A stretch of DNA of 64,000 bases, taken from Tahibacter amnicola. GTDB taxonomy: Bacteria; Pseudomonadota; Gammaproteobacteria; Xanthomonadales; Rhodanobacteraceae. The notes below the pieces were generated by a model. It did not search any database and was not told where the DNA came from. It saw only the letters and a list, made by a program, of their open reading frames with translations. The DNA is taken from the NCBI RefSeq assembly GCF_025398735.1, contig NZ_CP104694.1, positions 3,249,001-3,313,000 of the forward strand, in the 5' to 3' direction. A program made the position numbers and the translations under genes. Shown here in pieces: positions 3,998 to 63,617 of this stretch. Each line of letters starts with the position of its first letter. Within the stretch, counting starts at the first letter, position 1.

Positions 3998-5182
3998 ATG
4001 CGGAGCTCCTGGCTGCTTCTGGGCATAGGGATGGCGACGATGGCGGTGGCGCGACCACCGGATGGCGGTGGTCCGGCACCAATGCCGGCGTGGGACGACA
4101 TCACGCCCGCGCAGCGGGCTCGGATCGATGCGGAATTGGCGCAGAACGTCGACCGCCTGCGTCGCGAAGGGCAGCTGAAGGATCTGCCGCTGCCGCCAGC
4201 GGTGCCGTTGCAATCGGGCCTGCTCTGGCCACTCAAGCCGGTCGCCAGCTACCGCAGCCCGGGATATCACGGCGTCTCCAATTTCGTCGACCTGAACAGC
4301 GCCTCGGGCGCCTTGCTCGACTGGAACTGCGGCACGCGCACCTACGATCTGCCTGGCCCGCCGGTGTACAACCACGGGGGCATCGATATTTTCCTGTGGC
4401 CCTATAGCTGGCGGATGATGGATCAGTCATCCATCGACGTCGTCGCGGCGGCAGCGGGCACGATCATCGGCAAGAGCGATGGTTTCAATGATCGCAGTTG
4501 CCCGAACAACTACTCGGCCGACTGGAATGCCGTCTATATCCAGCATCCGGATGGTTCGGTGGCGTGGTACGGGCATATGAAGCTCGGATCGCCGACCAGC
4601 AAGTCGGTCGGGTCGACGGTCGCGGCGGGCGAGTACCTGGGAAAGGTCGGCAGTTCCGGATTCTCCAGCGGGCCGCACCTGCATTTTGAGAATCACACGG
4701 CCGTCAGCAACTACCAGATCCAGGAGCCCTATGCCGGTGCCTGCCGCGCGGGCGTCACGCAGTGGGCGCAGCAGCCCGCCTATTACGATTCAGCGATCAA
4801 TGAACTGGCGACGCATTCCGGACCGCCGGTGTATCCCAGTCCGAATTGTCCGAATCCGGTGGCCGAGACGCCCAATTACGACAATGCCTTCCTGGCAGGG
4901 CAGATGGTGTACTTCGTTGCGAACTATCGCGACCAGCGCGCAGGACAAGTGACAAACTTCGTCATCCTTCGACCGGATGGCTCGACATTTGCGTCGTGGA
5001 ATTTCGACATGGCCAACGCGACCGCCGACCCGTATTACGCGGCCTCGTACTGGTATTGGTGGTACACCTTGCCCGGTGGCGCACCGGCGGGCGTGTGGAA
5101 GTGGCGCGCGACGTACCAGTCGAAGACGGTGGAGAAGCGGTTCAATGTCGGGGATGTGATATTTGCGGACGGGGTTGAGTAA
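3998..5182 (+). CDS. Secreted M23-family metallopeptidase
   Basis: 394 residues. A short signal peptide (MRSSWLLLGIGMATMAVA) precedes a linker and an LytM/M23 fold. The zinc and catalytic residues are in place: HGGID (H126, D130), YGHM (H193) and GPHLHFE (H227, H229). Family members cleave peptidoglycan cross-links or Gly-rich peptides, so the likely site is the periplasm or outside the cell. A C-terminal ~130-residue beta-rich domain follows (NFVILRPDGSTF...GVWKWRATYQSK). The protein ends GDVIFADGVE, a variant of the FANGFE-type ending shared by other secreted proteins here. It stands alone, divergent from the radical SAM gene. Confidence 0.9.
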   Translation: MRSSWLLLGIGMATMAVARPPDGGGPAPMPAWDDITPAQRARIDAELAQNVDRLRREGQLKDLPLPPAVPLQSGLLWPLKPVASYRSPGYHGVSNFVDLNSASGALLDWNCGTRTYDLPGPPVYNHGGIDIFLWPYSWRMMDQSSIDVVAAAAGTIIGKSDGFNDRSCPNNYSADWNAVYIQHPDGSVAWYGHMKLGSPTSKSVGSTVAAGEYLGKVGSSGFSSGPHLHFENHTAVSNYQIQEPYAGACRAGVTQWAQQPAYYDSAINELATHSGPPVYPSPNCPNPVAETPNYDNAFLAGQMVYFVANYRDQRAGQVTNFVILRPDGSTFASWNFDMANATADPYYAASYWYWWYTLPGGAPAGVWKWRATYQSKTVEKRFNVGDVIFADGVE

Positions 5183-24387: not shown

Positions 24388-26664
24388 ATGATCACGGAAC
24401 CGACCGGGCGCAGCCCGCGTGGATGGCGTGCGCTGTTGGGTGCGATGGTACTGGTCGCGATGGTGGCGGCACCCGCGCAAGCGCAGCTGGAGCGCATCTT
24501 CGACAATGGATTTGAGCCGCGTGCGCTGGGGGCTGCACCGCAGCTGCGCATTCTGCGCGACGATCGCGTCGCCACGATTGACATGGACTACAACGCCGAG
24601 GATCCGTGGGGCCAGTTCTGGGAAATGAGCGGGTCGCCGGAGGATAACGCGGGCTTCCTCGTTTCCTGGTGGCCGGCCACGGCCGCGGCGCCCGAAGGCG
24701 GCAAGCTGTTCGGAAAGGGCGACAGCATCGGTTGCCTCAACCCCGAGCATGGCGGTGCGATGTCGCCCGTCGACAAGGCGGCGCCGGCGGGCGCGCGCTG
24801 GCTGGTCACGGGCAATCGCCGGGTACAAATCCAGCCACTGGAAAACGGTGTGAACTATACCGTGCGCGTGGAGCGTCTCAATGCACTGGGGCGGATCACC
24901 AGCGTCGCCGCTGAACAGACCTTCCCGGGTGGGGACGGTACCCGCGTGGCAGCGTTGCGCAACAGCATGACCTATTTTGACGATTTCAACCGGCCGGCGG
25001 GCGCCGCCGATGAAAAGCTGTGGGGCAATGCGGCGGTCACCTCGACCGATCCGCGCTTCAACCTGTTCTTTATCAATGATCAGTTCCATGCGCACACGCT
25101 CAACGGTACGCACCACGAACCGACCGGCGACCGCTCGCAGACCTCGCAACGTTTCCGCAAAAAGGTGCGTATCCAGCCCGGCGTCCGGCGCAAGATCGTC
25201 TTCGACATGGATTCGCCGCTGAGCCCGCGATCGGTGTGGTACCTGGATCTCAACCCGATTCCCACCGAATTGACGGCGCATGCGAGCTTCTTTGACCAGG
25301 AAGGCGACATCGGCTTGCCGGCGGGCGTTCTGCGCCTGCGCGCCGTGGGCCAGGATTTCAGCGTCAGCCTGATCGACAACCAGGGGTCGCTGCATCGCGT
25401 CGCCAACGTGCAGCTGGAAGACGTGGGTCGGCAGGCTGTGTCCAATGTGCGGCGCCAGTTCGAAGCGCGTGTCGGCACGGATGGCATCGAGGTGCTGATC
25501 GACGGGCGCAGCGTGATCAATGCAACCTATGCGCCGCAGACCTTTGCCGCCGGCGACTACGAGTTGCTCTGGGTCGGATTCGGCTACAACACGACCAAGG
25601 ACAACAATCCGTACTACCTGCTGCACTGGGACAATTTCGGCTTCGACGGCCCGGTGGTGGACGCGCGTACCGTTCACAACTACGTGACGCGGATCGCGGG
25701 CAGCGACTACCAGCTGTCTGGTGGCTGGGACAACCTGGTTCCGACCTTCACCGTGAAAATTCCGGACGACCTGCGTCCGGTAACCGCGGGTGCGACTGCC
25801 GAGGCATGGCTGGTATACACGTACCAGATGGGCGACTACTCGACGTTGTCGGTATTGCCGACTGATTTCGTGCGCGTCAACGGCGCCATGCAGTATCCGC
25901 TGCCGCAGCCGGCGAACAACAGCACGCCGTACAACGCCAACCTGATGCTCTGGGGCATTCCGCACACGGCGCGGATCAAGCTGGGTGACCTGGTGCAGGG
26001 CGGTGGATCACCGCTGCGCGTGGGTGACAATCATTTCCAGTTCAATGCCGATAACGCGGGCATCCTCAATGTCCACGTGGAAGTGGCCTATCCGCCCGGC
26101 AGCGCGCCGACCTACACGCCACCGGCGGCGATCCATCACTTCCCGATGCATGCCGAGCTGCCGCGACTGGGCCTGCCGGCCCGCCTGCAGAAGGTCGGCG
26201 AGACGAATATCAGCTCCGACCACCTGATGGACGCGAACCCGCCCGCCCGTATTCCGGTCCGCGGTGTCGTTCCGCTCAATATCGAAGTGGGCAACCGCAG
26301 CTGGGCCGACTGGGCTCCGCAACTGATGCATGTGCCGGTACAGAGCATGGAGATTTTCAGCAGCGGCGGTACCGCCGGTATTGGCCAGGTGGACGTGTAT
26401 CTGCGTCGCGTCGGTACTGGTACGGGCCCCGGCGAGCGGGTGATCCACCTGGATACCGCACGCGATGCACCGGCACCGCAGGGCCGCTACCTGCTGTCGT
26501 TCGACACCCGTGGGTTTGCCAATGGCGACTACGAATTGTTCGTGCAGGCGACTTCGCCATCCGGGTTGAAGAGCCACCCCAGCTATGGCGATGAGATGCA
26601 TCATTTCGAGGCGCAGGAGTTGTCGGGGGGCTATTACCCGATCCAGGTGCGGATCGAGAATTGA
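24388..26664 (+). CDS. Large secreted protein, unknown function
   Basis: 758 residues. The signal peptide (RALLGAMVLVAMVAAPAQAQ) ends near residue 33 and is followed at once by LERIFDNGFEPRALG, an FANGFE-type motif here at the mature N-terminus. The middle (TYFDDFNRPAGAADEKLWGN...YLLHWDNFGFDGPVV) resembles a laminin-G/concanavalin-like jelly roll. The rest (HHFPMHAELPRLGLPAR, GVVPLNIEVGNRSW, SMEIFSSGGTAGIGQVDVYLRR) looks like bacterial Ig-type beta-sandwiches. No catalytic motif is seen. Start supported by TGAGGGAA upstream. Single gene after paoABC. Confidence 0.8.
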   Translation: MITEPTGRSPRGWRALLGAMVLVAMVAAPAQAQLERIFDNGFEPRALGAAPQLRILRDDRVATIDMDYNAEDPWGQFWEMSGSPEDNAGFLVSWWPATAAAPEGGKLFGKGDSIGCLNPEHGGAMSPVDKAAPAGARWLVTGNRRVQIQPLENGVNYTVRVERLNALGRITSVAAEQTFPGGDGTRVAALRNSMTYFDDFNRPAGAADEKLWGNAAVTSTDPRFNLFFINDQFHAHTLNGTHHEPTGDRSQTSQRFRKKVRIQPGVRRKIVFDMDSPLSPRSVWYLDLNPIPTELTAHASFFDQEGDIGLPAGVLRLRAVGQDFSVSLIDNQGSLHRVANVQLEDVGRQAVSNVRRQFEARVGTDGIEVLIDGRSVINATYAPQTFAAGDYELLWVGFGYNTTKDNNPYYLLHWDNFGFDGPVVDARTVHNYVTRIAGSDYQLSGGWDNLVPTFTVKIPDDLRPVTAGATAEAWLVYTYQMGDYSTLSVLPTDFVRVNGAMQYPLPQPANNSTPYNANLMLWGIPHTARIKLGDLVQGGGSPLRVGDNHFQFNADNAGILNVHVEVAYPPGSAPTYTPPAAIHHFPMHAELPRLGLPARLQKVGETNISSDHLMDANPPARIPVRGVVPLNIEVGNRSWADWAPQLMHVPVQSMEIFSSGGTAGIGQVDVYLRRVGTGTGPGERVIHLDTARDAPAPQGRYLLSFDTRGFANGDYELFVQATSPSGLKSHPSYGDEMHHFEAQELSGGYYPIQVRIEN

Positions 26665-32365: not shown

Positions 32366-34171
32366 ATGCGCAGAAACCGCGCCGTATCCGCATTCTTGTC
32401 CCTGTTGCTTTCCACGGCTGCCAGCGCCGAAACCCTTGGCACCGGCTTCACCTACCAAGGCGACCTCACCGTCAACGGTGCGCCGGCAACTGGCAGCTAT
32501 GACCTCAAATTCCTTCTCTTCGCGGTGCCGACGGGCGGCATGCAGGCAGCCACGGTCACCGTGGATGACGTCGCCGTCGTCCAGGGTGTCTTCACCACCG
32601 GTATCGATTTCACGGACGTTCCCTTCCAGGACGGGCAGCAGTACTGGATCGAAGTACGCGTTCGCGAAGGCACCAGCACCGGCACCTACCAGCCGCTGCT
32701 GCCGCGCCAGGCGATCACGGCGACGCCCGTGGCCCTGAGCGCGCGCAACGTGCTCAATGGTGGCGTGACGCAGGCCTCGATCGCGCCAGCTGCCGTCGGC
32801 AGCACCCAGCTGGCCGTCAATGCCGTGACCGGGTCCAAGATTGTCGACGGCAGCATCACCGCCACCAAGCTGGCCTTTGCAGCGGGCGATATCACCGGGG
32901 TGACGGCGGGTAGTGGCCTGACCGGCGGTGGTACGACGGGTGATGTGACGCTGGCCGTGAATCCGGCCGTCGTGCAGATGCGTATCTCCGGTACCTGCGC
33001 CACGGGTCAGTACCTGCGCGGCGTTCATGCGGATGGGAGCCTGCTCTGTGACGTGATTCCGGGCGTGGCGAACGACAGCACCAATGTGGTGAACGGTGCA
33101 ATCACGCAGAGTCAGATCGGCCTTGCCATTCCAGCCGACGGCCTGCCCGTCATCAGCTATACGGACGCTGCCAGCCAGTACCTGCGCCTGGCCAAGTGCG
33201 CCGACAGTGCGTGCCGTTCCGTCAGCGGGGTCAAGGTCATCAGGAACCCGCAGGGCGCGTCCGTGCAGGGCGATGCCTCGGATATCGCGCTCGACGCTGA
33301 TGGCATTCCCGTCATCAGCTTCTACGATCCGGCTCTGCGGGCACTGAAGATCGCTCGCTGTGCCGACCCCGTCTGCGAGGGCAATGCCAGCGTCGAACTC
33401 ATTGACGACGATGCGACGGGAACCCTGGGGCAGCACAGCTCTCTTGTCCTGGACGCCAATGGCTATCCGCTCGTCAGCTACTGGGACGCGGGCAACGGTG
33501 ACCTCAAGTTCATCCGCTGCCAGAACGCCACGTGCAGTCTGAATCCCGGTTCCCGCGTGATCGACCAGTCGGCCAGCACTATCGTTGGCGAATACAGCTC
33601 GATCATCCTCGACCTCTACGGGCATCCGGTCATCAGCTACTACGATCGTAGCAACGGTGCCTTGAAGATCGCGTCGTGTACGACGGACAGCTGTGGTGGC
33701 ACCATCCACTTCAAGACAGTCGACGAGGCCGGTAGCGACTACGGCAGTTTCAGCGCGATGGTCCGCAGCGCCGACAACCGCCCCCTTGTCAGCTTTTTCG
33801 ACAACACGGCCAAGCTGGTGAAAGTGGCCGCGTGCGACCTGTACGACTGCAGCGGCAACATCACGGTGACGACGATCGACGGTGGGCCTGGCGTATCCGT
33901 CTCCGGACATACGACCATCGCCAACGGCAATGACGGGCTTCCGATCATCGGCTATGCCGTTGGCCCGCAGGTGTTCGCCTTCAAGGTGACCAAGTGCGGC
34001 AACACCCAGTGCACGCAGCGCATGTCATCGAGCGTGGTCGATGGCGTTGACTTCACGCCGCATTTCCCCGACATCGCCATCGGCCCGGACGGCCTGCCGC
34101 TGGTCGTGGGCCGCAACTCTGGTAACGGCTACCTCCGTGCTGCCAAGTGCGGAACGCGGAGCTGCCAATGA
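32366..34171 (+). CDS. Secreted repeat protein with paired cysteines
   Basis: 601 residues with signal peptide (AVSAFLSLLLSTAASA). Residues ~25-120 form a beta domain (FTYQGDLTVNGAPATGSYDL). Residues ~125-230 have tail-fibre-like motifs (GSKIVDGSITATKLAFAAGD, GSGLTGGGTTGDVTL). From ~245 there are about seven ~52-residue repeats of the type DGLPVISYTD..LRLAKCADSACRS, each with a CxxxxC pair, predicted as a propeller with disulphide staples. The stop overlaps the next start (ATGA). Probably an extracellular binding or surface protein. Upstream lies the divergent membrane regulator. Confidence 0.85.
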   Translation: MRRNRAVSAFLSLLLSTAASAETLGTGFTYQGDLTVNGAPATGSYDLKFLLFAVPTGGMQAATVTVDDVAVVQGVFTTGIDFTDVPFQDGQQYWIEVRVREGTSTGTYQPLLPRQAITATPVALSARNVLNGGVTQASIAPAAVGSTQLAVNAVTGSKIVDGSITATKLAFAAGDITGVTAGSGLTGGGTTGDVTLAVNPAVVQMRISGTCATGQYLRGVHADGSLLCDVIPGVANDSTNVVNGAITQSQIGLAIPADGLPVISYTDAASQYLRLAKCADSACRSVSGVKVIRNPQGASVQGDASDIALDADGIPVISFYDPALRALKIARCADPVCEGNASVELIDDDATGTLGQHSSLVLDANGYPLVSYWDAGNGDLKFIRCQNATCSLNPGSRVIDQSASTIVGEYSSIILDLYGHPVISYYDRSNGALKIASCTTDSCGGTIHFKTVDEAGSDYGSFSAMVRSADNRPLVSFFDNTAKLVKVAACDLYDCSGNITVTTIDGGPGVSVSGHTTIANGNDGLPIIGYAVGPQVFAFKVTKCGNTQCTQRMSSSVVDGVDFTPHFPDIAIGPDGLPLVVGRNSGNGYLRAAKCGTRSCQ

Positions 34172-34467
34172 ACGCGCGGATTCGCAAGTCGCTCGTCCTG
34201 CTGGCGGGTCTGGGCCTGGCCGGTGTGGCGCTGGCGCAATCCGGTGGCGGGAATTTCCAATTGCGCTGGACACAGGATGGCGGTGGTGGCCGTTCCACCG
34301 GCGGCAGCTTCGCGGTGACCGGCACGATAGGACAGGTGGACGCTACCGCTCTGATGTCCGGCGGCACGTTTTCGGTTCGCGGCGGATTCCACCGTCCGCA
34401 CGGGGCGCTGGGCGAAACGCTGTTCGCGAATGGCTTTGAGCCTGCGTCGCCGCAAGCGGTGGAATGA
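34168..34467 (+). CDS. Small secreted protein ending in the FANGFE motif
   Basis: 99 residues from ATG 34168, overlapping the preceding stop by four bases, so translation is probably coupled. Signal peptide KSLVLLAGLGLAGVALAQ, then a Gly-rich beta segment (GGGNFQLRWTQDGGGGRS, VTGTIGQVDATALMSGG, FSVRGGFHRP) and LGETLFANGFEPASPQAVE at the end. Proteins with the segment [W]xxDGGGGxSxGGxFxxxGTIGQ are common small exported proteins; role unknown. It may act with the large repeat protein encoded just before it. Confidence 0.8.
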   Translation: MNARIRKSLVLLAGLGLAGVALAQSGGGNFQLRWTQDGGGGRSTGGSFAVTGTIGQVDATALMSGGTFSVRGGFHRPHGALGETLFANGFEPASPQAVE

Positions 34468-43428: not shown

Positions 43429-44733
43429 TCAGGCGGCTTCGAAGCCGTTGGCGAAAATCAGGTCGCCATCGCTCAGGGCAAAGAAGTAGACGGGCTCATC
43501 CACGTCGTTGAGCAGGTAAAAGCCGTCGAGCCCCGGCGCGTAGCCAAAGCGGCCGAACGTGCCATTGGCCTGGCCGATGGTTGGTGTGACCGTGTTGCCG
43601 GCGGCGACAGGCAGGGTGTCCCAGGTCCAGGGCTGGGAACGCGGATCGGCGGGCGCGCGCAGCAGGGTGACGGCGCTGGTGGTTGCGACGTTCCGGTTGT
43701 GCCACAGCGCCACGGCGTTCAGGCCCGGAACCCATTGGCAGCCGGCCTGGCCACCGGGCTGTCCCAGATGCGCCGGCCAGGAGTTGGTCGCACCGGGATG
43801 GGTCAGTTGCGCCGTCGTAGCATCCCATATGGCAAAACCCTGCGGCAGCGCGGCGCTGAGCATGACCAGGATGTCGTGCTGCGGCGCGTGCGTGAGCGCG
43901 TGGTAGTTCCAGTAATTGGCCTGGGTGCCCCCGGTGAAGACGTCCCACTGGTTGGACGCCACGTCGTAGCGTGTGAGCCAGGCCGTTCCGGCGCCAATCC
44001 ACCACACGGCGTCACGCGTGGCGTCGTAGCAGGCACCGCCGTACTCGACCGCCGCTGCCGGATGCGTGGTGCGCACCTCCCATTCACCGTTGCTGGTGTT
44101 GAGCAGCAGGCTGCGCTGCGTCCCCGCCTGTCCGCTCTGGAAGGTGGCACCCTGCACGGCGCAGAACGGGCCGCGCCCCGGTAGATAGACATGTTTGTTG
44201 TAACTGTGGATGGCGCGGGGGCGGCCATCGGCATAGTTGCCTGTCGCTTCCTGGCCGTCAGCCAGGGTGATCTGGCCCAGCGGCATGGATCCGGATGGCG
44301 GCCGTGGCATTCGCCACTGCGGAATCTCGTCGGCCAGGCAGATGCCATAGGCTTCGTTGCCGGCATAGTCGCCGTGCCCGCCACCCAGTGGCAGCCATAG
44401 CGTTCCGCTACCGTTATCGTAGCAGGCGCCGCACCAGGGCAGAATGACTCCCGCCTGGCCGAGCGCGCCGCCCCAGGGGCCACGATTGTCGTTGGGATTG
44501 CCGACGAGGTACGGGTTGAGCTGGGGATTGCGTGCCGGGTCGATCTGCTGGAGCGTGTTGGCTGCGGGAATGGCGCGCCAGGTATTGGCCGCCATGGCAC
44601 GCCGCCATGTGGGAAACGGCGTCCCCAGCGCACTGCGAGGCGTCGCGCCTGCGAGGCGGGCCAACGGCAGGCAACCCAGGCCGACGGCGGCCTGGAGCAG
44701 ACGGCGGCGTCCCGGATGATCGACCTTGTCCAT
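43429..44733 (-). CDS. Tat-exported propeller-like protein ending in FANGFE
   Basis: 434 residues from ATG 44733 with GGGAG seven bases upstream. The frame is open to 46206, but the extra part lies antisense to the Hsp90-like gene. The N-terminus GRRRLLQAAVGLGCLPLARLAGA is a twin-arginine signal. The body has kelch-like strands (YDNGSGTLWLPLGGGHGDYA, EYGGACYDATRDAVWWIG, RYDVASNQWDVFTGG, GRFGYAPGLDGFYLLNDV). It ends LSDGDLIFANGFEAA, the clearest example of the shared C-terminal motif. Related proteins are annotated as galactose-oxidase-like or kelch; no active-site residues could be assigned. Confidence 0.85.
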   Translation of the reverse strand: MDKVDHPGRRRLLQAAVGLGCLPLARLAGATPRSALGTPFPTWRRAMAANTWRAIPAANTLQQIDPARNPQLNPYLVGNPNDNRGPWGGALGQAGVILPWCGACYDNGSGTLWLPLGGGHGDYAGNEAYGICLADEIPQWRMPRPPSGSMPLGQITLADGQEATGNYADGRPRAIHSYNKHVYLPGRGPFCAVQGATFQSGQAGTQRSLLLNTSNGEWEVRTTHPAAAVEYGGACYDATRDAVWWIGAGTAWLTRYDVASNQWDVFTGGTQANYWNYHALTHAPQHDILVMLSAALPQGFAIWDATTAQLTHPGATNSWPAHLGQPGGQAGCQWVPGLNAVALWHNRNVATTSAVTLLRAPADPRSQPWTWDTLPVAAGNTVTPTIGQANGTFGRFGYAPGLDGFYLLNDVDEPVYFFALSDGDLIFANGFEAA

Positions 44734-62213: not shown

Positions 62214-63617
62214 ATGCAGATGCCGATGATGAAACGAGCTGCGCGGTGTTTCGCGGTTGTCATGACCGTCTTGATGATTGGGGCTGGAGCGGGTGTGCCG
62301 GGATCTTCCCTGGCGACAACATGGCATGTCGCCATTACCGGATCTGACAGCACTGGCAACGGTACCGCCGGGCTTCCCTATGCGACCCCGGCCAGGGGTT
62401 TATCCATGGCGCAAGCGGGGGATACGGTGCTCTTGCACGGCGGTACCTATCACACGTCCACACTTGGCCTGTACGGCGCGATGACTTCGGCGTTGCCAGT
62501 CACTCTGCAATCGGCGCCGGGCGAATGGGCCGTGCTGGACGGCAGCAACGCGGCTGCGGACACGCCGATCTTCTACATCCAGGGCAGTGGTTATCAGATC
62601 CGGTCGCTCGAAATCGCCAACGCACGCAAAAGTGCCATTTCCATCGACGGTGGTCATGACCTCGTGATCGCCGATTGCGTCGTCCGCGACAGCATCGGTG
62701 GCGCCGTCTATCCCTACAACGGCGCGCATCACCTGCGCATCGAGCGCAACGATTTCCATCACAACATACGTTCCAATCAGCCAACACCACGACCGGACGG
62801 CGGCTGGCCCTCAGCCGTGAACCTGTCAGACCATGACGACGTCGTGACCGACAATCTCATCCACGAGAACTGGGGCGAGGGCATGGGCATCTACGGCCAG
62901 CGCCACCGGGTGGCGCGGAATCGACTGCACGACAACTACAGCGTGGACCTGTACGCCAACAATCTCGTCGATTCCGAAGTGTCGGCCAACTTCGTCTATA
63001 CCCGCGGTCTCGCTGACTACTTTCGATTCGGTAGCGCGGCGATTGGTATCGACCTTGCCGCAGAGAGCGGCACGGACCCGAACGGATTCAGCAACAACCG
63101 CGTGGTCAACAACCTTGTGACAGGCGCGCGGCGGCGTTGCCTGGGACAGTGGAACGGTTTCGGCAACCGTCCTGCGCAGAACTCGCTTGTCGCCTTCAAT
63201 ACCCTGGTCTGCGCTGCGACCGAGGGCACGATGGTTTTCGACGACGGTCCGCATACGGGTGTTGTCGTGCGCAACAATGTTTTGGTGCAGTCCTTGCCCG
63301 GATCGCCTTTGATCGCCTTGGGTACTTCGCCTGCGATCACCTTCGATCACAATGCGCGCTGGGGCGGGCAGACGATACCGGGCGCTGCGATGGGTGCTGG
63401 GGATATCACAGCTGATCCGCGGCTTCGGTGCGCCGCTTCCGGTACGCGCAATGGATTGCGACTACGCGCAGATTCGCCATTGCGTGATGCGGCGCTGCCC
63501 GACGCGTCCGTGGCAACGGACGCTGACGGAGCGCAACGCGTGTCAGGATCAGCGCCGGATATCGGTGCTTTGGAGTATCCGGTCGATACGTTGCTGTATG
63601 CTGACTTCGACTGTTGA
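62214..63617 (+). CDS. Secreted right-handed beta-helix protein
   Basis: 467 residues (MMKRAARC at 62226 is an alternative start). Signal peptide CFAVVMTVLMIGAGAGVPGSS. The body is a right-handed parallel beta-helix of the pectate-lyase type: DTVLLHGGTYHTSTLGLYGA, RSLEIANARKSAISIDGGHD, RIERNDFHHNIRSN, VTDNLIHENWGEGMGIYGQ, ARNRLHDNYSVDLYANN, VRNNVLVQSLPGSPLIAL. Such folds bind or cleave polysaccharides. It ends DIGALEYPVDTLLYADFDC, where LLYADFD is a worn form of the FANGFE-type ending. No catalytic residues could be assigned. Confidence 0.88.
   Translation: MQMPMMKRAARCFAVVMTVLMIGAGAGVPGSSLATTWHVAITGSDSTGNGTAGLPYATPARGLSMAQAGDTVLLHGGTYHTSTLGLYGAMTSALPVTLQSAPGEWAVLDGSNAAADTPIFYIQGSGYQIRSLEIANARKSAISIDGGHDLVIADCVVRDSIGGAVYPYNGAHHLRIERNDFHHNIRSNQPTPRPDGGWPSAVNLSDHDDVVTDNLIHENWGEGMGIYGQRHRVARNRLHDNYSVDLYANNLVDSEVSANFVYTRGLADYFRFGSAAIGIDLAAESGTDPNGFSNNRVVNNLVTGARRRCLGQWNGFGNRPAQNSLVAFNTLVCAATEGTMVFDDGPHTGVVVRNNVLVQSLPGSPLIALGTSPAITFDHNARWGGQTIPGAAMGAGDITADPRLRCAASGTRNGLRLRADSPLRDAALPDASVATDADGAQRVSGSAPDIGALEYPVDTLLYADFDC

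Follow-up and report, generated by a model that had tools for sequence, protein, structure and literature searches.

A heptapeptide on unrelated exported proteins of the order Lysobacterales follows a class-A type II secretion system and is a probable targeting signal for it

Several exported proteins encoded in the window (the whole stretch of DNA analysed, 64,000 nucleotides from the genome of Tahibacter amnicola) carry nearly the same seven residues, mostly at or close to the C-terminus, and the question raised by this locus is what so short a peptide does on proteins of differing folds. The tag sites and the genes concerned are as follows.

3998..5182, + strand: exported M23 peptidase with a C-terminal tag (Pfam PF01551, E 2.8e-14; signal-peptide score 4.4)
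5159..5179, + strand: tag IFADGVE immediately 5' of the stop codon, V replacing the second F (pattern match, translation)
24388..26664, + strand: 758-residue exported protein with the tag near the mature N-terminus; no Pfam match at E 0.01
24496..24516, + strand: tag IFDNGFE, a few residues after the signal peptide (...APAQAQLER-IFDNGFE)
34168..34467, + strand: 99-residue exported protein with three homologues among the tagged ORFs of other loci (tagged ORFs alone searched)
34420..34440, + strand: tag LFANGFE, eight residues ahead of the stop; the 99-residue protein ends LFANGFEPASPQAVE-stop
43429..44733, - strand: 434-residue exported protein ending DLIFANGFEAA-stop; likely start MDKVDHPGRRR, twin-arginine-like by eye
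43438..43458, - strand: tag IFANGFE, two residues ahead of the stop of the 434-residue protein
63591..63614, + strand: C-terminus LLYADFDC of a beta-helix protein (Beta_helix PF13229 in the protein); tag pattern not matched

The tag ends that the preliminary description had assigned to the M23 peptidase, to the small protein at 34168 and to the minus-strand gene at 43429-44733 were confirmed. The beta-helix protein, which it had counted as a fourth carrier, was dropped given that its end DTLLYADFDC does not contain the F-x-[ND]-G-F core, and one true case in the window was absent from that description, namely the N-terminal IFDNGFE at 24496-24516 that follows a signal peptide. The motif FA[ND]GFE was found twice in the window compared with a mean of 0.02 after shuffling. 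The 434-residue protein had no Pfam match at E 0.01, and the longer ORF enclosing it had no NCBIfam match; a tagged paralogue with 70% identity is present elsewhere in the genome (L027/L096). The 99-residue protein and its homologues L222, L168 and L064 make up a small protein family spread over several families of the order, with four tagged copies in a search among tagged ORFs only, one of them with ADSFE; the structure prediction of the 99-residue protein from four sequences reached a mean pLDDT of 40.

In the complete genome of 6,458,662 bases the pattern [LIVMF][FY]x[ND]G[FV][ED] had 51 matches and the backwards control had 1, which excludes chance as the source of the tags. The count of 51 is low because the D at the first codon of the genome pattern shuts out CTN leucine codons; it misses the LFANGFE of the window at 34420 as well as the HLFGDGFE with which a gene in L279 ends. 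At a locus that was fetched for a chance internal match (L049, G000:C1:5923000-5933000) there is a tagged lipoprotein-like ORF ending DYLFANGFD, and since this tag escaped the codon-limited pattern the tags outnumber those counted.

When all 51 matches were read, 43 were located at most 12 residues from the stop and one at 36 residues before it; of the remainder, three follow a signal peptide and four resemble chance matches. A strict pattern was also read in three genomes, with 46 matches from Tahibacter amnicola, 23 from G515 and 25 from G004 (94 in total; for G515 and G004 the listed places fitting 20 stretches per genome were read and they are thus part of the matches of these two genomes). 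The claim that the tag always sits at or near the last residues held for 83 of the 94 strict matches, which are at most 12 residues from the stop, 25 of these 83 unselected C-terminal tags being exactly at the stop. Two more were within 13-40 residues and nine were elsewhere, and here the claim failed for the five tags that stand up to about 30 residues behind a signal peptide and for one tag deep inside a protein, at residue 1038 of a 1258-residue ORF (L173), where it possibly sits between domains; three resemble chance. Three of the five N-terminal cases belong to the Tahibacter genome, and those of G004 (L177 and L180) were judged by eye, our signal-peptide scorer giving none for L177 and a borderline 4.0 for L180. 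Two tagged C-termini about 15 kb apart in L170 (G515:C1:2658000-2677990) are preceded by nearly the same residues (...MSAYGASPLVFRDGFE) and are probably a duplication.

The core of the tag is [IVL]-F-x-[N/D]-G-F-[E/D], mostly preceded by D/E-x. Given that the search pattern itself fixes positions 2, 5 and 6 (F, G and F) and limits positions 1, 4 and 7, the composition of the 83 unselected tags was I 61%, V 23% and L 11% at position 1, mostly A or R at position 3, D 55% and N 45% at position 4 and E 75% and D 25% at position 7, with D 54% and E 18% at position -2. When position 5 was relaxed S, R, D and A were also seen there. The glycine codons of the tag were GGC in 101 cases, GGT in 29, GGG in 27 and GGA in 27 (206 ends, including loci chosen by pattern). 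Since synonymous sites vary while the amino acids are fixed, selection acts on the peptide, and a DNA repeat that happens to be read in frame was excluded.

The carriers are for the most part unrelated to each other. With the C-terminal tag cut off, 48 carriers of the Tahibacter genome fell into 34 clusters (BLASTP, E<1e-4), the largest with eight members, and a single homologous domain shared by all of them, which would have spoken against the preliminary description, was not found. At an E-value of 0.001 the carriers matched NCBIfam and Pfam models of subtilases, M14, reprolysin-like and M36-like peptidases, endonuclease I, the ExeM/NucH nuclease, beta-helix, FG-GAP and GSDH proteins and choice-of-anchor Q and J proteins. 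These tables, ordered by sharing, hold the best 25 families out of 49 (NCBIfam) and out of 62 (Pfam), mostly without a cut-off check; the most widely shared model was found in 6/48 carriers for NCBIfam and in 5/48 for Pfam, and no family among the best 25 of either set corresponds to the tag. Several models among these matches take their names from other sorting systems (M36 peptidases dependent on rhombosortase, myxosortase or T9SS, rhombotarget A, LPXTG-anchored serine peptidase), and because of these matches the tag may stand where other lineages place known sorting signals.

Export was scored with a crude home-made signal-peptide scorer that tries many starts and is generous to tagged and untagged proteins alike. 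In the Tahibacter genome 28/35 tagged proteins were called exported as against 65/233 others, and the corresponding numbers were 89/135 for complete tagged ORFs from all fetched loci and 135/408 for untagged genes in the loci of three genomes (Fisher's exact test, p = 3e-11). The enrichment among exported proteins that was anticipated beforehand is thus present and, together with the 34 clusters, supports the idea that a sorting-type tag is carried by exported proteins of differing folds. A rough Tat pattern was found in 6/155 complete tagged ORFs, including the paralogue L096 of the gene at 43429, not all six being convincing, and a lipobox was found in 2/155.

The distribution of the tag was examined in three genome samples. 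Among 369 genomes of the class, the two members of the Tahibacter genus had 46 and 20 matches and all others had at most 5, with controls reaching 6. In the family sample of 147 genomes 34 had at least 12 matches (12 to 159 each) and the other 113 had at most 4; tagged were 8/8 genomes of the Tahibacter genus (g1), 10/10 of g5, 2/2 of g16, 10/10 of g26 and 4/10 of g9. In the order sample of 160 genomes the tag was patchy across many families and many genomes had at most a few matches. A search of the GTDB collection (84,980 species) for D-R-I-F-x-[ND]-G-F-[ED]-stop returned 50 stretches, from records of Tahibacter, Dokdonella, Rudaea, Pseudofulvimonas, Pseudolysobacter, Lysobacterales, Lysobacteraceae and Rhodanobacteraceae and also from metagenome-assembled genomes labelled Proteobacteria, Pseudomonadota, Gammaproteobacteria, Alcanivoracaceae (2) and Betaproteobacteria (1), whose placement is that of the record label alone; the matches in L118, L120 and L136 proved to be genuine C-termini. 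Within the genomes sampled, the tag is limited to the order Lysobacterales/Xanthomonadales and patchy inside it. One might imagine that unrelated domains use the motif as a structural cap or stop element, since a tight turn would be favoured by [ND]-G between aromatic residues. The presence of the tag in 34 clusters, the variation at synonymous sites, the many genomes of the same order with few matches and the restriction of counts above 5 to the Tahibacter genus among the 369 class genomes all speak against such an element, and likewise against an in-frame DNA repeat or chance, and we regard this group of explanations as highly improbable.

The C-terminal signals of the type IX secretion system are folded domains of Bacteroidota that are read by the secretion machine after Sec export. 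The tag, as proposed below, would be like them in being read by a machine after Sec, and differs in being a peptide of 7-9 residues in Gammaproteobacteria. PEP-CTERM, recognised by its phylogenetic profile, is likewise a genome-wide C-terminal tag (PMC1569441, in the portion available), but the present tag contains no transmembrane segment and exosortase does not follow it. The likeness to MYXO-CTERM with its myxosortase lies in dozens of tagged proteins per genome within one lineage; in the parts of PMC11980579 consulted that signal is tripartite and includes an invariant cysteine, whereas no conserved Cys is present in the 83 unselected tags. The GlyGly-CTERM of the rhombosortase system is also C-terminal, present on many unrelated exported proteins and associated with a type II secretion system (T2SS), and some tag carriers match its NCBIfam models. 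However, it consists of a Gly/Ser-rich motif, a hydrophobic region and positive residues (excerpts of PMC6219818) and is processed by an intramembrane protease, while the tag can also stand near the N-terminus and, from the position table of the 83 tags and their tails, has neither a Gly/Ser-rich motif nor a hydrophobic helix nor a basic end; in the tails listed no hydrophobic helix with a basic end followed the tag. The statement that the tag is none of the named CTERM signals is supported, the features of PEP-CTERM and GlyGly-CTERM being absent and no matching family being among the best NCBIfam and Pfam families listed. Searches of the open-licence PMC literature found no paper on a CTERM sorting signal in Xanthomonads or on a C-terminal sorting signal for type II secretion in Lysobacter, and for type II secretion in Dokdonella they found one paper, on an S-layer protein.

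Exosortase, GspD and GspG were the gene families profiled against the tag, and some other gene might follow it more closely than these do. Exosortase (PF09721) was rejected as cognate enzyme, with weak partial matches in 21/40 GFE-tagged and 11/40 other genomes and with no match in any of the four g26, one g16 and three tagged g9 genomes tested. The Tahibacter genome has a weak partial match to the exosortase family (31 bits, G000:C1:1607558-1608028), and matches are present in 31/79 other genomes tested. The genes beside tagged genes were also clustered in search of an enzyme specific to the tag, and no recurring cluster spanned more than 4/40 loci. The preliminary description had expected a co-occurring processing enzyme. 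Among the families profiled no such enzyme emerged, and it was a whole second T2SS that proved to accompany the tag.

Searches with the GspD model TIGR02517 in 40 GFE-tagged and 40 other genomes revealed a second, higher-scoring GspD in most of the tagged ones. Two classes of T2SS could be distinguished in the fetched loci: in class A gspC-gspD-gspE stand side by side, while class B is an Xps-type cluster. Class A is canonical, with a GspC that has T2SSC (HR) and PDZ domains, GspD, GspE and a separate pseudopilin cluster, and its GspC profile matches the solved OutC, PulC-PDZ and EpsC-PDZ chains. The predicted structure of the GspC of G515 has a membrane helix, a strand-rich domain and a C-terminal domain (pLDDT about 70-90, mean 65.6), a model that fits the canonical build. 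In the Tahibacter genome the class-A C-D-E genes are located at about 1.306 Mb, gspG (181.7 bits at G000:C1:5818940) and its neighbours at about 5.819 Mb, and class B at about 6.08 Mb. The adjoining H-to-N-like genes were named by order and sequence appearance. Class B of this genome includes an XpsM-like protein above the NCBIfam cut-off and an XpsN-like protein that is below the cut-off and has no Pfam match. The Tahibacter class-A gspC is interrupted by a change of reading frame (L193:7510-8533, G000:C1 about 1305509-1306532), T2SSC 4-117 being in one frame and 117-141 plus the PDZ domain in the other, which reflects either a fault of the assembly or real damage to the gene. A tagged gene ending HLFGDGFE (L279:10915-11664) is situated about 1.6 kb from this gspG, and in G515 a tagged gene ending VFANSFE (L281:48-2957) is about 6 kb from its gspG, but this proximity is weak evidence because the tags are so numerous.

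For the order sample we built a class-A GspD HMM from seven sequences, six of GFE-tagged genomes and one of G562 (R/S variant), and ran it on the same 160 genomes that were used for the tag count. Full-length class-A proteins scored 650-1163 bits and Xps-class proteins up to about 215 bits; a group in f2, which we take to be Xcs-like, was intermediate at 360-545 bits (best piece). Class-A genomes of f190 without GFE were at first the main exceptions to an association. With position 5 left free, C-termini such as IFADRFE, IFSDRFE and IFRNRFE were found in this family, as R and S variants that are present in some lineages, and an R/S pattern then confirmed the variant there: 14/15 tested g304/g342 genomes had 10-65 matches with controls of 0-2, the remaining one (G588) having a single match, while in untagged genomes without class A the same pattern gave 0-4 matches, near controls of 0-5.

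Genomes were called tagged with at least 8 GFE matches, or at least 8 R/S matches where these were measured. On this basis 78 of the 160 genomes had both tag and class A (64 GFE, 14 R/S), 11 had class A only, 4 had the tag only and 67 had neither (Fisher's exact test, p = 4e-28, uncorrected for ancestry), where ten genomes without a listed GspD match were counted as class A absent and the class-A calls of G608, G619, G639 and G611 rest on fragments taken as broken by contig ends; 8 of the 67 doubly negative genomes have an Xcs-like secretin. When each genus was scored by the majority of its members, 30 had both, 3 class A only, none the tag only and 31 neither. The 147 genomes of the family sample, 26 of which are shared with the order sample, gave 31 with both, 8 with class A-like only, 3 with the tag only and 105 with neither, and within genus g9 class A was present in 4/4 tagged and 0/6 untagged members. 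A canonical GspG (164-195 bits) was found in 39/40 tagged genomes, the exception being G075 (93% complete). A GspG of at least 150 bits was present in 11/40 other genomes, of which nine have a class-A GspD (six g304 genomes, G518, G567 and G025); the other two, G024 and G564, have neither the tag nor a full-scoring class-A GspD. The Xps-type T2SS was rejected as the cognate machine, being present in tagged and untagged genomes alike. One complete genome (G529; f189, g309; 100% complete) of a mostly tagged family had no GspD or GspG match and no GFE matches.

The exceptions are of several kinds. Among genomes of the order sample with class A only, G604 and G631 had 6 GFE matches each, G518 and G527 (f187) had 6 R/S-pattern matches each, all serine variants by their codons, G632 and G644 were scored by GFE alone, and G567, G582, G588, G618 and G642 look untagged. 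Tag-only genomes were G553, G563, G566 (97% complete) and G615 (96% complete) in the order sample and G103, G120 and G037 in the family sample, all three 85-90% complete. The eight class A-like genomes of the family sample all belong to g25 and scored 628-668 bits versus 1035-1163 bits for full-length tagged ones, and their divergent class-A-like T2SS (e.g. L206) may use another signal; the GspD of G065 in this sample is a fragment. A relaxed pattern gave the following matches and backwards-control matches: G582 12/3, G618 16/15, G642 9/6, G567 12/6, G588 8/6, G025 2/0, G566 38/5 and G553 26/0, with G010 8/1, G528 4/5, G519 5/2 and G311 3/5 as untagged comparison. From these counts there is no clear variant tag in G618, G642, G567, G588 and G025, and one in G582 is doubtful; G566 and G553 still count as tagged without class A.

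The association could in principle reflect lineage history alone, the tag and the class-A T2SS being old features of the order that were lost together without functional contact, for example if the function of the tag lay in a different trait common to this ecological type. Most genera sampled in f1, f2 and f188 lack both, and because of this joint absence from large groups a good part of the 67 concordant negatives cannot count as independent. This explanation is nevertheless rather improbable, given that concordant switches occur inside g9 and at the isolated genera g332 (f2), g338 (f188) and g309 (f189) and that, by majority of members, every genus with the tag also has class A.

The tag is thus real, conserved at the protein level, mostly terminal and present on unrelated exported proteins, and it follows the class-A genes across genomes. 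We consider it probable that this heptapeptide, [IVL]-F-x-[N/D]-[G>S,R]-F-[E/D], serves in Lysobacterales/Xanthomonadales as a short linear signal that targets proteins to the class-A T2SS. The link between tag and machine is a correlation; that this T2SS reads the tag, which of its subunits binds it and that it acts before passage of the outer membrane we infer. In the proposed sequence of events the carriers would reach the periplasm by Sec or Tat and then fold, and the free-standing tag, C-terminal or now and then near the mature N-terminus, would be recognised by a part of the T2SS that faces the periplasm, the likeliest readers being the GspC PDZ domain and/or the N-domains of GspD; the tagged protein would then be secreted or placed on the surface. 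Reading after the inner membrane is suggested because Sec, Tat-like and lipoprotein-type carriers appear to share the tag, which would also have to function next to many different folds. The more specific version, in which the tag is a position-tolerant and probably portable T2SS address label read by the GspC PDZ and/or GspD N-domains and its position 5 (G, S or R) drifts with the machine, has in our estimate about an even chance of being correct.

Published work offers a partial precedent. In the sections of PMC7949064 consulted, loop 3 of the Fn3 domain of PelI, nine residues long, is a secretion signal in the Dickeya T2SS that acts through GspC and GspD, and because this loop works via these two proteins a docking peptide for the T2SS fits. 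The loop 3 of PelI/Pel3 resembles the tag as a short, exposed and flexible stretch that serves as a T2SS signal; it differs in being a loop of one protein family and part of a composite of several signals (same source and extent), whereas the tag is linear, mostly terminal and found on dozens of unrelated proteins. The PDZ domain of EpsC is needed for VesB secretion (PMC12369372, in part). In the portions of the literature available, substrate choice by the T2SS is described as unresolved and without common sequence features (PMC10128026), there is no linear universal secretion signal (PMC12369372), and several signals per substrate are reported and not one linear tag (PMC10128026, PMC12369372, PMC7949064).

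An anchoring or processing role after secretion is the main rival. The tag would then act after or with class-A secretion as a surface-anchoring or processing signal, in the manner of GlyGly-CTERM/rhombosortase with the Vibrio T2SS, and an enzyme or receptor at the outer surface would cut or bind it. Such a role is suggested by the carriers that match rhombosortase-, myxosortase- and T9SS-dependent M36 and choice-of-anchor Q/J models, mostly without a cut-off check, by the terminal position, which suits post-secretion anchoring or maturation too, and by GlyGly-CTERM proteins, which according to the available text of PMC13393428 require that motif plus a separate T2SS signal. However, the tag has no hydrophobic helix or basic tail, 25/83 unselected C-terminal tags end right at the stop, and the 5/94 tags behind signal peptides are ill-suited to a cut-and-attach reaction at a new C-terminus; furthermore, exosortase does not follow the tag (21/40 GFE-tagged and 11/40 other genomes) and a non-systematic screen found no enzyme. 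On balance we regard anchoring or processing as unlikely.

If the tag is a targeting signal for the class-A T2SS, the finding would matter because the papers cited, in the parts available, describe no common linear T2SS signal (PMC7949064, PMC12369372, PMC10128026). It would be the first shared linear signal for this type of secretion, long sought, and would make the substrates of the machine predictable from sequence alone and substrate recognition by the T2SS directly testable. The tag would then provide a predicted secretome for many Lysobacterales and a likely location for many proteins to which no function has been assigned, and it could possibly serve as a compact export tag.
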